DNA of 64,000 nucleotides. Origin: Candidatus Arcticimaribacter forsetii (GTDB lineage: Bacteria > Bacteroidota > Bacteroidia > Flavobacteriales > Flavobacteriaceae). The stretch covers positions 1,718,501 through 1,782,500 of the forward strand of contig NZ_OU342399.1 of assembly GCF_910589745.1 (NCBI RefSeq), in the 5' to 3' direction. The translations under genes and the position numbers were made by a program. Every line of letters begins with the position of its first letter. The first letter of the stretch is position 1. Of the stretch, positions 6,617 through 10,970 are shown in pieces. Under the pieces are notes generated by a model. That model worked only from the letters and a program-made list of their open reading frames with translations, had not been told where the DNA came from and ran no database searches.

Positions 6617-7567
6617 TTAATTAAATATTGGGCTCAAAAGAGGTACTACTTTTTCTGATTCCATCAGAAAAGCATCATGACCATATTTAGAAGTTATGAT
6701 TTGATGATTAATCGTTACGCCAACTTTTTTGGCTCTCTCTACAGTTTCTTTATCCTCACTTAATGGAAAAAACAAGTCACTATCAATTGAGAAAATATGG
6801 ATAGATGACTTTATACTTTTGACAATTTCTTCAAAGGTTCTTCCATCTCTTGTGATGTCAATAGAACCAAGTAAATGATTCATTGTTTTGTATGCTTGAA
6901 CTTGGAATCTATTCGTTAATTTTTCTCCATGATAGGCTAACCAAGACTCTACATTAAATAAGCCGAGTTCTTCATTCACGGTTCTATTAAATTTAATCTT
7001 AAAAGACTCTGGGGTCCTGTAACATAGCATAGCGTGCATACGGGCAACATCAAGCGAATCAGAACTTAAAGCTAAAATCTGTTTTTGAACGAAAGTATTC
7101 GCTATCATCCAATCTGTAGACTTCCAATCTCCTCCTACAGGAATTAAATTTGTTATGAAGTCCGGGTAAAGTGCTGCCATTTCCCAAGAAATTCCTGCCC
7201 CTAACGAACCACCAATTACAGTATGTAAGTGGCCTACTCCTAGTTGCTTTAAACCTTCATAAAAAAAACGGGCAATTGTACCTGTATTCCAAGACTCAAA
7301 ATCATCGATTAAATTACCATCAAAACCATTTCCTGGAATGTTAAAAGAAATAATTGCATAGGTATTTGTATCAATCGGCTTACCTTCCCCAATTAAATTA
7401 TTCCACCAACCAAACTCTCCTGTTACCCTAGAGTCACCCGTTAAAGGATGATTTACCAGAACTATTGGCGCAGTATGGTAATCTTGTCCGAATGTTTGAA
7501 AACTTAGTTTTCTCCCACTAGAAAGAGTTAATAAATGTATTCCATTATGAAGTTGAGATGCGTTCAT
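6617..7567 (-). CDS. metX: Homoserine O-acetyltransferase-family alpha/beta hydrolase (MetX-like)
   Basis: The protein has the MetX/alpha-beta hydrolase fold and would activate homoserine by acylation to feed the sulfhydrylases on either side. A complete triad is visible: nucleophile S121 in GGSLGAG, D264 in DSDLFFP, and H297 in the C-terminal GHDAFLME block that is diagnostic of MetX. An oxyanion-hole segment LVNHPLTGDS (about 37-46) also fits. At 316 residues it is shorter than the usual 350-380-residue MetX and seems to have a reduced lid region. Acetyl-CoA is the likely donor, because flavobacterial operons pair this protein with MetY, but succinyl-CoA cannot be excluded. It lies 10 nt from the OsmC-like gene and 8 nt from metY. 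Confidence 0.85.
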   Translation of the reverse strand: MNASQLHNGIHLLTLSSGRKLSFQTFGQDYHTAPIVLVNHPLTGDSRVTGEFGWWNNLIGEGKPIDTNTYAIISFNIPGNGFDGNLIDDFESWNTGTIARFFYEGLKQLGVGHLHTVIGGSLGAGISWEMAALYPDFITNLIPVGGDWKSTDWMIANTFVQKQILALSSDSLDVARMHAMLCYRTPESFKIKFNRTVNEELGLFNVESWLAYHGEKLTNRFQVQAYKTMNHLLGSIDITRDGRTFEEIVKSIKSSIHIFSIDSDLFFPLSEDKETVERAKKVGVTINHQIITSKYGHDAFLMESEKVVPLLSPIFN

Positions 7568-7575
7568 CTTTGGCT

Positions 7576-8841
7576 TTAAAAGGCTTGTTTTAAATCGTTC
7601 TTTAAGTCTTCAATATCTTCTAAACCAATAGAAAGTCGAACTAAATCTTGAGTAACTCCTGTTAATTTTTGAGAATCTGAATCTAGTTGCTGATGCGTAG
7701 TACTTGCTGGATGAATAATCAATGACTTTGTATCACCAATATTCGCCAAAAGAGAGAATATGTTGGTTTTATCTGCAACTTGTTTTGCAGCTTCAAACCC
7801 TCCTTTTAAACCAAAAGTAACAATTCCACTTTGGCCTTTAGGGAGATACTCTTTTGCTAATACATTATACTTACTCGAACTTAATCCAGGATAATTTACC
7901 CAGGCAACTTCTTCTTGTTGCTCTAACCAAAGTGCAATTTCAAGAGCATTTTTAGAATGTTGATTCATTCTAAGAGAAAGAGTTTCTAATCCTTGAATAA
8001 TTTGAAAACTATTAAATGGACTCAATGCTCCTCCAAAATCTCTTAAACCTTCTATTCTTACTTTTGCAATAAATGCGGCTGCTCCTAAAGCTTCATGGTA
8101 AACTAATCCATGATAACCTGGAGATGGCTCAGTAAATTCAGGGAATAAACCATTACCATAGTCAAATGTTCCAGCATCAATTATAACACCACCTAAAGAG
8201 GTACCATTTCCGTTTATATATTTAGTTAAAGAATGGATTACAATATTTGCTCCATGCTCAATTGGATTTAATAAAGCAGGTGTAGCTACAGTATTATCTA
8301 CAATAAATGGAACTTTTGCTTTTTTAGAATAAGCGGCAATACCTTTTAAATCTAAAACATCCAACTTAGGATTTCCAAGAGACTCTACAAAGAAAGCACG
8401 TGTATTGTCTTGCACTGCTTTTTCGAAATTTGAAGGATCGCTAGGATCTACAAAAGTTGTTGTAATCCCTAATCGAGGAAGAGTAACGTTTAATAAATTA
8501 TAGGTTCCTCCATATAAACTATTGGAAGCTACAATATGATCTCCTGATTTTAATAAAACCATTAAAGCAGTTGAAATCGCTGAAGTACCAGATGCAGTTG
8601 ACACTGCTGCTATACCTCCTTCAAGGGCAGCAAGTCTTTGCTCTAAAACGTCGTTTGTTGGATTATTTAAACGGGTGTAGATATAACCTGGTTCCGCTAA
8701 AGAAAATAAATTTGCAGCATGATCTGCGTCATTAAACACATAGGCAGTTGACTGATAAATAGGAACGGCTCTAGTACCTTGAGAGTTTGATGGTTCGTGA
8801 CCTGCGTGTAATGATTTTGTTTCGAAATTGTGATTTTCCAT
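7576..8841 (-). CDS. metY: O-acetylhomoserine sulfhydrylase MetY
   Basis: MetY makes homocysteine directly from O-acetylhomoserine and sulfide with PLP. The 421-residue length and motifs are those of the MetY branch of the gamma-family: ETKSLHAGHEP at the N-terminus (7-17), YTRLNNPTNDVLE (55-67), VDNTVATP (181-188), PLP lysine K207 in HSLTKYINGNG, and a long insertion after it (GNGLFPEFTEP region, about 228-242) that MetZ lacks. It is the second gene of the operon, 5 nt after metK. Having both MetY and MetZ suggests that the cell can use sulfide directly and may also use a second sulfur donor or acyl form. Confidence 0.92.
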   Translation of the reverse strand: MENHNFETKSLHAGHEPSNSQGTRAVPIYQSTAYVFNDADHAANLFSLAEPGYIYTRLNNPTNDVLEQRLAALEGGIAAVSTASGTSAISTALMVLLKSGDHIVASNSLYGGTYNLLNVTLPRLGITTTFVDPSDPSNFEKAVQDNTRAFFVESLGNPKLDVLDLKGIAAYSKKAKVPFIVDNTVATPALLNPIEHGANIVIHSLTKYINGNGTSLGGVIIDAGTFDYGNGLFPEFTEPSPGYHGLVYHEALGAAAFIAKVRIEGLRDFGGALSPFNSFQIIQGLETLSLRMNQHSKNALEIALWLEQQEEVAWVNYPGLSSSKYNVLAKEYLPKGQSGIVTFGLKGGFEAAKQVADKTNIFSLLANIGDTKSLIIHPASTTHQQLDSDSQKLTGVTQDLVRLSIGLEDIEDLKNDLKQAF

Positions 8842-8846
8842 GGCTG

Positions 8847-10103
8847 TTAAATATTAAATTCTTTTTTAATCTGTTCTATATAATCTAGTTTTTCCCAAGT
8901 AAATAATTCTACTTCTTGGGTAATTGTTCCGCTGTAAGGAGACTCGAAAGTTTTAGTTACTTTTTTTGGCTCTCTTCCCATATGTCCATAAGCAGCGGTT
9001 TCTGAGTAAATGGGTGTTCGTAATTTTAATCGTTTTTCAATCCCAAAAGGAGTTAAGTCAAATAATGAAATAATTTTATTTGCAATTTCTCCATCAGTAA
9101 AATCAACTTTTGATTTTCCGTAGGTGTTAACAGCGATTGATGTAGGCTCAGCTACTCCAATTGCATAACTCAATTGAACTAAAACTTCGTCAGTTATCCC
9201 TGCAGCTACAAGATTCTTTGCAATATGTCTAGAAGCATAAGCTGCACTTCGATCTACTTTACTTGGATCTTTACCGCTAAAAGCTCCGCCTCCGTGACCT
9301 CCCTTTCCACCGTAAGTATCGACAATAATCTTACGTCCTGTTAATCCAGTATCTCCGTGTGGACCTCCAATTACAAATTTACCTGTTGGGTTTATATGAT
9401 ACGTTATCTTATCATCAAATAGACGTTGAATTCGCTCTGGCAATTGACTCTTTACTCTCGGAATTAAAAGGGAAACAAGGTCACTTTTAATTTTAGCAAG
9501 CATAGCCTCATCATTAGAATCAAACTGATCATGCTGGGTTGAGATTACGATCGTATCTATTCTAATCGGAACTCCATCCTCGTTATATTCTAATGTAACT
9601 TGAGATTTTGCATCTGGGCGTAAATAGTTAATTTCTTTATTTTCTCTTCTTAAAGCAGCTAACTCAATTAAAAGCTTGTGTGAAAGATCGAGAGCTAACG
9701 GCATATAGTTATCCGTTTCATTTGAGGCATAACCAAACATGATTCCTTGATCTCCAGCACCCTGACGTTCTTTTACTTCACGATCTACTCCTTGATTTAT
9801 TTCTTTAGATTGTTCATGAATTAATGAAATAACTCCACAAGAATCTCCACTAAATTGATATTCGCCTTTTGTGTAGCCTATTCCATTAATAGTGTCTCGC
9901 GTAATTTTTTGAACGTCTAAATAGGTCTGACTTTTAACTTCTCCTGCTAGAACTGCTTGTCCAGTTGTAACAAGAGTTTCACAGGCTACTTTACTTTCCG
10001 GGTCAAAAGCTAAAAAGTTATCAACGAGAGCATCACTGATTTGATCAGCCACTTTATCTGGATGGCCTTCACTTACTGATTCTGATGTAAAAAAATATGA
10101 CAT
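8847..10103 (-). CDS. metK: S-adenosylmethionine synthetase MetK
   Basis: MetK forms SAM from methionine and ATP and is the first gene of the minus-strand operon. The 418 residues carry the family signatures: FTSESVSEGHPDKVADQISD near the N-terminus (methionine/ATP site), GAGDQGIMFGYA (about 115-126), the glycine-rich GGKGGHGGGAFSGKDPSKVDRS loop (about 263-284) and VGVAEPTS-like AIGVAEPTSI near residue 313. The ATG at 10101-10103 lies just 5 nt after the 3' arm of a hairpin in the leader RNA. The product SAM is therefore expected to repress translation of its own gene through the riboswitch upstream. Placing metK first makes it the most directly controlled gene. Confidence 0.97.
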   Translation of the reverse strand: MSYFFTSESVSEGHPDKVADQISDALVDNFLAFDPESKVACETLVTTGQAVLAGEVKSQTYLDVQKITRDTINGIGYTKGEYQFSGDSCGVISLIHEQSKEINQGVDREVKERQGAGDQGIMFGYASNETDNYMPLALDLSHKLLIELAALRRENKEINYLRPDAKSQVTLEYNEDGVPIRIDTIVISTQHDQFDSNDEAMLAKIKSDLVSLLIPRVKSQLPERIQRLFDDKITYHINPTGKFVIGGPHGDTGLTGRKIIVDTYGGKGGHGGGAFSGKDPSKVDRSAAYASRHIAKNLVAAGITDEVLVQLSYAIGVAEPTSIAVNTYGKSKVDFTDGEIANKIISLFDLTPFGIEKRLKLRTPIYSETAAYGHMGREPKKVTKTFESPYSGTITQEVELFTWEKLDYIEQIKKEFNI

Positions 10104-10108
10104 TTAAG

Positions 10109-10205
10109 GTTGCTTTCTGGAAGGATTTGAAGATTACTTCTTTTAAAGCAACACTGGTTTAGCATTTTTTTTATGAGGGTTGCAATCAGTCAAATCCTTC
10201 CTCAG
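10109..10205 (-). ncRNA. SAM-II riboswitch (aptamer 10152-10205 plus expression platform 10109-10152)
   Basis: Read on the minus strand, the metK leader contains the conserved SAM-II core. The P1 arms UGAGG (10200-10204) and CCUCA (10174-10178) pair perfectly. They enclose GAUUUGACUGAUUGCA and are followed by AAAUGCUAAACCAG. The pseudoknot is supported by ACUG (10187-10190) with CAGU (10153-10156) and GCA (10181-10183) with UGC (10162-10164). SAM-II is known from Alphaproteobacteria and marine Bacteroidetes in front of met genes. Downstream, GUUGCUUU (10145-10152) can pair with AAAGCAAC (10109-10116), ending 5 nt before the metK AUG. UCAAAUCCUUCC (10119-10130) is perfectly complementary to aptamer bases 10190-10201. 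I infer a switch in which SAM favours the start-proximal hairpin and lack of SAM favours the competing helix. Confidence 0.85.
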
Positions 10206-10215
10206 TTATTTGATA

Positions 10216-10246
10216 CAAAGGTAATTCATAAAAATTAAAAACAAAA
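10216..10246 (-). promoter_or_regulatory. Bacteroidetes-type promoter of the methionine operon
   Basis: On the minus strand a -7 element TACCTTTG (10216-10223, matching TAnnTTTG) follows a TTTTG -33 element (10242-10246) by about 18 nt. Transcription should start near 10210, just before the P1 helix of the SAM-II aptamer, so the transcript would begin with the riboswitch. Confidence 0.65.
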
Positions 10247-10358
10247 TCCATATGAATAATTTTTTTTTAATTCTTTTGATAGTACATTTATGGGGACAAT
10301 CACCAATGATTTACATTCTAAACAATGTATGTATATCTGTAATTTTAATTAAATAATT

Positions 10359-10970
10359 ATGCACATAGCTATAGCCGGCAATATAGGAGCAGGAAAAACA
10401 AGTCTTACAGATTTATTATCAAAACATTATAAATGGCAAGGTCATTTTGAAGAGGTTGTTGAAAACCCCTATTTAGATGATTTTTATCATCAAATGGAAC
10501 GTTGGTCATTTAACCTTCAAATTTATTTCTTAAATAGTAGGTTCGGACAACTCATAGAAATACAAAAAAGCGGAAAAAATGTAATTCAAGACCGAAGTAT
10601 TTATGAAGATGCTCACATTTTTGCACCAAATCTTCATGCTATGGGCTTATTGTCTCAGCGAGATTACCAGAACTACAAATCTTTATTTGAATTAATGGAA
10701 GGCATGGTAACAGGACCAGATTTAATGATCTACTTAAGATCCAGCATACCAAACTTAGTTAACAACATTCACAAAAGAGGGAGAGAATTTGAGAACTCAA
10801 TAAGCATCGATTATTTAAGCCGATTGAACGAACGTTATGAAGCTTGGATTCATAATTATGATAAAGGGAACTTATTAATTATTGATGTTGATGAATTGAA
10901 TTTCGTTGATAAGCCTGAAGATATTGAAAAAATAATTGAAAAAATTGACTCTGAAATTAAAGGGTTATAA
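10359..10970 (+). CDS. Deoxynucleoside kinase (dNK/dGK-dAK family)
   Basis: This 203-residue P-loop kinase phosphorylates deoxynucleosides for nucleotide salvage. The Walker A motif GNIGAGKT is at residues 7-14. The catalytic glutamate region follows as FEEVVENPYLDDFY (about 30-43), and the DRS motif QDRSIYEDAHIFA lies near residue 88. The lid-like arginine segment KRGREFE (about 139-145) and DYLSRLNERYEAW are also typical. It is divergent from metK across a 255-nt region that is occupied mainly by the metK leader, and it ends 14 nt from convergent hppA. Base specificity (dA, dG or broad) cannot be set from the sequence. Confidence 0.92.
   Translation: MHIAIAGNIGAGKTSLTDLLSKHYKWQGHFEEVVENPYLDDFYHQMERWSFNLQIYFLNSRFGQLIEIQKSGKNVIQDRSIYEDAHIFAPNLHAMGLLSQRDYQNYKSLFELMEGMVTGPDLMIYLRSSIPNLVNNIHKRGREFENSISIDYLSRLNERYEAWIHNYDKGNLLIIDVDELNFVDKPEDIEKIIEKIDSEIKGL

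Follow-up and report, generated by a model that had tools for sequence, protein, structure and literature searches.

Genomic context of the SAM-II element

The stretch of DNA analysed here (the window, 64,000 nucleotides) carries on its minus strand a complete SAM-II aptamer, followed by metK, a metY-type gene and a MetX-like acyltransferase gene (Table 1). The aptamer matches the RF01726 covariance model above the gathering score over model positions 1-60 of 60, and no other SAM-II match occurs in the genome of 2.03 Mb. It precedes metK, which belongs to the methionine and SAM genes, and on model score and gene context the metK leader RNA is a member of the SAM-II class that would be expected to bind SAM. 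Both strands of the P2 pseudoknot, ACUG (10190-10187) and CAGU (10156-10153), can be read in the sequence and are presumably partners. From the end of the aptamer (10153) to the metK AUG there are 49 nt, occupied in part by a start-proximal hairpin.

Table 1. Genes and leader elements of the metK region (window coordinates)
Feature	Position	Strand	Evidence
MetX-like acyltransferase	6617..7567	minus	best match TIGR01392, 179.5 bits, below cut-off 500
metY-type O-acetylhomoserine aminocarboxypropyltransferase	7576..8841	minus	TIGR01326, 631.8 bits, cut-off 495.1; 5 bases past metK
metK, methionine adenosyltransferase	8847..10103	minus	TIGR01034, 495.4 bits, cut-off 309.4; AUG 10103-10101
Hairpin arm e (AAAGCAAC), 5 nt ahead of AUG, proposed start-blocking	10109..10116	minus	8/8 with arm c; arms in 19/19 genus leaders
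Antisense segment d (UCAAAUCCUUCC)	10119..10130	minus	12/12 Watson-Crick with segment a; covariation with aptamer strand over 227 leaders
Antisense segment d' (GUAAUC)	10132..10137	minus	MFE fold, duplex; GTAATC in 16/19 genus leaders
Hairpin arm c (GUUGCUUU), directly after aptamer	10145..10152	minus	8/8 with arm e; flanking pairs covary
SAM-II aptamer (RF01726), complete	10149..10209	minus	72.8 bits, gathering 44
Aptamer segment a' (GAUUGC), P2 5' strand, second helix block	10182..10187	minus	pairs with 10132-10137 in MFE fold and duplex
Aptamer segment a (GGAAGGAUUUGA), antisense target: two P1 bases, L1, first P2 base	10190..10201	minus	12/12 with segment d; Rfam alignment
Candidate promoter element TACCTTTG (-7 element); TTG at 10242-10244	10216..10223	minus	motif match to TAnnTTTG

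The motif TAnnTTTG, which we take to be the flavobacterial -7 promoter consensus, occurs within 70 nt upstream of the aptamer in 157 of the 172 leaders that have enough sequence, against 7.6% of shuffles, and because of this the metK transcript is predicted to start probably at about the aptamer 5' end. The spacing of the motif is near-fixed, its end lying 10-20 nt ahead of the P1 mark in 145 of the 172 leaders; the riboswitch therefore appears to begin almost at the start of the transcript.

Alternative structures in the metK leader

A preliminary description of this DNA had reported a 12-bp complementarity between 10119-10130 and 10190-10201, the latter comprising two bases of P1, the whole of L1 and the first base of P2. 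Direct reading of the sequence gives 12/12 Watson-Crick pairs (10201-10190 with 10130-10119), the Rfam alignment agrees with the assignment of the aptamer bases, and the long-range helix with L1 as its switching strand finds support in what follows. Of 100,000 dinucleotide-shuffled leaders, 7 contained a perfect 12-mer, and exact copies of the 12-mer seen here occur in the 64 kb window at these two places only. A looser threshold of 9/12 pairs was useless as a test, since 87-88% of shuffles pass it. As a total, however, 12 pairs was too few: beyond a 2x1 internal loop, GAUUGC (10187-10182) pairs with GUAAUC (10132-10137), with one G-U, so that the helix amounts to 18 pairs.

The duplex formed between aptamer strand and leader has an energy of -25.3 kcal/mol versus a shuffle mean of -10.1, and the leader fold has a z-score of -3.34. 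The ligand-free MFE fold contains all 12 pairs, with a probability of 0.997, together with the six GAUUGC:GUAAUC pairs, and the 18-pair antisense helix is thus predicted to be the fold that the complete leader prefers when SAM is absent. Since helix and aptamer share bases, the two are mutually exclusive. The leader therefore possesses, by MFE and by the covariation described below, the alternative helix made of aptamer bases and favoured without ligand that characterizes antisequestor/sequestor riboswitches.

The 8-bp hairpin given in the preliminary description (10145-10152 with 10109-10116) was likewise read as 8/8 pairs, closing five bases (10108-10104) before the AUG. The claim that helix and hairpin exclude each other needs rewording. 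Helix and aptamer do so through shared bases, as proposed, whereas the hairpin has no base in common with the 12-bp helix; formed jointly they would give a pseudoknot whose linkers measure 37, 14 and 2 nt, and any exclusion between them would have to be steric because no strands are shared. The 18-pair helix would leave a 7-nt link from arm c, which may make the hairpin sterically difficult, not impossible.

Two further elements were considered and set aside. A mini-hairpin GAAG-UAAU-CUUC (10140-10129) was tried as a third element and reached p<=0.05 in just 19 of 60 leaders of the surrounding clade (defined below); GUAAUC is retained where several genus and near-genus leaders have lost the mini-hairpin 5' arm, which makes the antisense extension the better reading of this segment. 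A mini-hairpin before the antisense core recurs in relatives with other sequences, for example AAACG-CAC-CGUUU (p<=0.05 in the same 19/60). A second antisequestor helix, between the P2 3' strand UAAAGCA and arm c UGCUUUA, looked attractive in relatives but was rejected for this leader (-1.1 kcal/mol, p 0.56); 18 of the 19 genus leaders give values between -0.3 and -2.7, and p<=0.05 is reached by 11 of 58 clade leaders and 22 of 169 elsewhere.

Distribution and covariation of the antisense strand

Leaders for comparison were compiled from 266 loci, taken from the best-scoring matches listed and from one DNA pattern scan on the aptamer. Removal of 25 duplicates, 11 aptamers lacking a metK start and 3 loci lacking a clean aptamer left 227 distinct leaders, which are a non-random sample among the matches listed and of which 25 derive from the DNA pattern. 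For each leader, the antisense was tested as its own duplex against 300 shuffles, with 5% expected at p<=0.05. The hairpin clade referred to throughout is defined by the arms TTGCTTT and AAAGCA.

SAM-II is present in all 19 genomes of the genus. The exact 12/12 pairing is found in 12 of the 19 leaders, 10 or more consecutive complementary bases in 18 and GTAATC in 16, while the hairpin arms are kept, and the antisense beats shuffles at p<=0.01, in all 19. In wider samples, SAM-II occurs in 373 of 397 genomes from the family, 202 of 296 from the order and 34 of 247 from the class. Among the matches listed, the antisense reaches p<=0.05 in 60 of 62 hairpin-clade leaders, in 60 of 103 other leaders of the family (43 show none at this threshold) and in 25 of 62 leaders from other families of the order (37 none). 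Outside the order, 29 loci were collected, of which 7 belonged to order members and were skipped and 4 of the 22 examined were misparsed, leaving 6 of 18, few as these loci are, at p<=0.05. For an alphaproteobacterial outgroup (tblastn with the metY protein, plasmids), none of three annotated regions had a leader that was SAM-II-sized by gene spacing.

In the genus the leaders are alike throughout, which would fit a chance complementarity kept by descent. Across the wider set, each antisense strand was confronted with its own and with foreign aptamer strands. In an alignment-free permutation test with one leader per distinct aptamer strand and 5000 permutations, own strands scored -13.63 versus -11.07 for permuted ones in the other family leaders (32 strands; 0 of 5000) and -12.90 versus -10.12 in other families of the order (28 strands; 0 of 5000); in the hairpin clade, which has only 4 distinct strands, the own-versus-foreign test was not significant (417 of 5000). 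Close relatives whose strands differ were grouped into 105 disjoint pairs. The own combination was better in 74 of these, the swapped one in 22 and 9 were ties (sign test p 9e-8), a design that is also alignment-free and that lessens the effect of relatedness without removing it, related sequences not being independent. At the level of single bases, the L1 base that follows GATTTG faces its complement in 70 of 94 leaders when it is A (opposite U) and in 15 of 15 when it is G (opposite C), and in just 1 of 15 when it is U (opposite A); 103 leaders lack the motif scored in this column. One leader, L250, combines an altered L1 with an altered antisense strand and has 20 pairs. Barring an alignment artefact, the permutation and disjoint-pair results across the order refute mere descent, which we consider barely credible.

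A further question is whether the complementarity acts in RNA at all. An inverted repeat with 12 bp arms some 60 bp apart does exist in the DNA and could serve, for example, as an operator with no RNA role. However, one of its arms is the ligand loop of the aptamer, the pairing sits downstream of the predicted promoter, and G-U combinations, which pair in RNA only, account for 53 of 732 pairing cells in the clade versus 45 mismatches, besides the one in GAUUGC:GUAAUC; an explanation at the DNA level is extremely unlikely.

By sequence comparison, then, the antisense pairing is conserved and covaries across the Flavobacteriales. Lack of conservation in homologous leaders had been named beforehand as an outcome that would refute the helix, which proved to be conserved and covarying far beyond the genus; it is not confined to the metK leader of this organism, being a recurrent trait of SAM-II throughout the Flavobacteriales.

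SAM-II elements were also seen ahead of other genes. In marine flavobacterial genomes, SAM-II precedes a QueF-like gene (L027, L124 and L147, and with a similar start L049, L063 and L082), an unexpected SAM-II target outside methionine metabolism. Scans of five of these loci gave aptamer scores of 68.7-76.2 bits, and two proteins scanned matched PF14489 with 73.3 and 72.7 bits. Their antisense p-values are 0.005 (L124), 0.045 (L082), 0.055 (L147), 0.164 (L063), 0.204 (L049) and 0.224 (L027). In some relatives a second SAM-II aptamer with an antisense strand of its own lies before a metY-like gene (L038, p 0.05; L055, p 0.005), and in L081, where SAM-II stands before another gene, no antisense was detected (p 0.856).

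Start-proximal hairpin and output step

Since the arms define the clade, their presence within it is circular evidence; the flanking pairs lie outside the definition. The inner flanking pair is a standard pair in 53 of 59 clade leaders, with 33.3 expected and 0 of 10,000 permutations reaching this number, and it takes the forms T-A (23), C-G (23), A-T (4) and G-C (2). The next outer pair is standard in 45 of 59 (37.2 expected, 8 of 10,000 permutations), and pairs further out give no covariation signal (28 of 59 versus 28.6 expected). Within the clade, 1-9 nt separate the hairpin from the AUG. The other family leaders have a start-proximal hairpin no more often than chance predicts (6 of 104 versus 7.2 expected), and leaders from other families of the order have one slightly more often (11 of 62 versus 4.9). 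On these comparisons, the hairpin is conserved and covarying in the surrounding clade and confined to it. Many family leaders outside the clade (e.g. L084, L227 and L239) share another block after the aptamer, GCAGUGUAAACUUCC...GACG....CGUCAAAUC, which suggests that the same antisense strand is combined there with a different output structure.

Folding energies were compared for successive 3' ends of the transcript, pseudoknot and SAM being outside the fold model. With the 3' end at 10129, the free fold has -10.9 kcal/mol and the fold with aptamer P1 held -9.4; at 10117 the values are -27.0 and -9.4, a gap of 17.6 kcal/mol, which becomes 12.3 kcal/mol once the hairpin can form. Because the aptamer is almost as stable as the best alternative until the antisense strand has been transcribed, the choice between the two is probably made co-transcriptionally.

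Two measures of start-site accessibility gave opposite answers. The opening energy of -18..+8 goes in the wrong direction for a SAM-dependent shut-off in this leader (-3.9 kcal/mol, p 0.95) and, in the clade, its median of -1.6 versus -0.95 for shuffles, with 20 of 59 leaders at p<=0.05, also speaks against this reading; the sign is opposite because the antisense helix itself extends to -16. The region -14..+8, which was picked after that negative result, has a predicted unpaired fraction of 0.72 in the free fold and 0.51 with the aptamer held, and the clade medians are 0.64 and 0.52, with shuffles showing the opposite and 35 of 61 leaders at p<=0.05. The earlier suggestion that translation is off with SAM and on without it thus agrees with the folding of -14..+8 and is contradicted by the opening energy of -18..+8.

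Many SAM-II representatives elsewhere precede intrinsic terminators (available text of PMC1273637), and alternative structures in the metK leader might in the same way govern termination within it. Such attenuation is very unlikely: no terminator-like site, and so no terminator platform of the SAM-II type, was found in 9800-10500, and the U run lies inside metK codons at least 12 bases past the hairpin. Nor does the leader have a ribosome-binding site in or near P2 that could be occluded directly, the AUG being separated from the aptamer by 49 nt and a hairpin.

Discussion

We propose, with a probability of roughly 0.7, that the antisense strand 10119-10137 captures the SAM-free aptamer, so that the start-proximal hairpin forms only with SAM and metK translation is then off. 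In the absence of SAM, the antisense strand would pair with L1 and the P2 5' strand (10182-10201), the aptamer would be destroyed and metK would be on. With SAM bound, the hairpin would form and its 3' arm would cover -13 to -6 of the start region, turning metK off. The switch would be kinetic, and SAM would have only a brief time to bind until the antisense strand emerges. The leader would be expected to bind SAM, its logic would be OFF, as we infer because the gene is metK and from the riboswitch class, and the 18-pair helix would exclude the hairpin sterically. Support is good for the pairing and weaker for the output step, where the -14..+8 region, chosen later, agrees and -18..+8 opposes.

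It is at this output step that a different role for the antisense strand has to be weighed. The strand might merely tune the aptamer, by setting the SAM threshold or rescuing misfolded aptamers, with output through mRNA stability, Rho-dependent termination or ribosome access that needs no hairpin. The antisense is indeed more widely spread (60/103 in the family, 25/62 in other families) than the hairpin, which is at chance level in other family leaders, one accessibility test (-18..+8) was negative, and a SAM-II riboswitch affects mRNA stability in Sinorhizobium according to the available text of PMC9373788. Against mere tuning, the hairpin of this leader's own clade shows covariation and lies within 1-9 nt of the AUG, and holding the aptamer closes -14..+8; we regard tuning alone as rather unlikely and prefer capture of the SAM-free aptamer coupled to the hairpin.

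Beyond metK of this organism, it seems somewhat more probable than the contrary that Flavobacteriales share an order-wide SAM-II platform, in which the leader would carry its own antisense copy of the SAM pocket. This copy would race SAM for the loop during transcription and coevolve with the near-invariant pocket, and lineage-specific output hairpins, such as the one at metK, would decide the outcome.

The SAM-II class is already known; what is new in the metK leader is the expression platform. The 'long loops' form of SAM-II, RF01726, to which the metK aptamer is a full-length match of 72.8 bits, is listed as Bacteroidetes and marine in PMC2864571, the available text of which gives no expression platform for comparison. 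The preliminary description held that SAM-II is normally described with short Shine-Dalgarno sequestration. This is too narrow, as intrinsic terminators come after the aptamer in many SAM-II members from other phyla (PMC1273637, PMC2258182, in their available text). In the direct-occlusion type, the available texts of PMC10907184 and PMC9373788 place the ribosome-binding site inside P2; the metX SAM-II from the Sargasso Sea (PDB 2QWY) has the same aptamer class and a proposed translational OFF logic, but its ribosome-binding site is in P2 (PMC10907184), whereas 49 nt and a separate hairpin intervene at metK. The alphaproteobacterial metA/metZ elements (PMC1273637, PMC9373788, PMC2258182) resemble the metK leader in that the ligand state would decide a downstream hairpin; that hairpin is a terminator there, and the available texts do not describe a switching strand pairing to L1 and P2 such as is proposed here. 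P2 has been regarded as the interface to the SAM-II expression platform, and in antisequestor/sequestor translational riboswitches the ligand likewise breaks an alternative pairing so that a sequestering hairpin forms, but the switching strand there is usually the outer P1 helix, in contrast to the ligand-contacting loop found here (both after the available text of PMC2258182). A search of open-access literature, in the available text, yielded no description of an L1-antisense SAM-II platform.

Start sites in this bacterial group are not known to carry strong Shine-Dalgarno sequences. If correct, the proposed mechanism would provide a means of SAM-II gene control in a large group where the class is nearly universal (373/397 family genomes). 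The loop that contacts the ligand would itself do the switching, with SAM and an RNA strand as competitors for the same bases, and covariation with the downstream strand would account for part of the variation in the ligand pocket. The metK leader, being short, lends itself to a test of these proposals.
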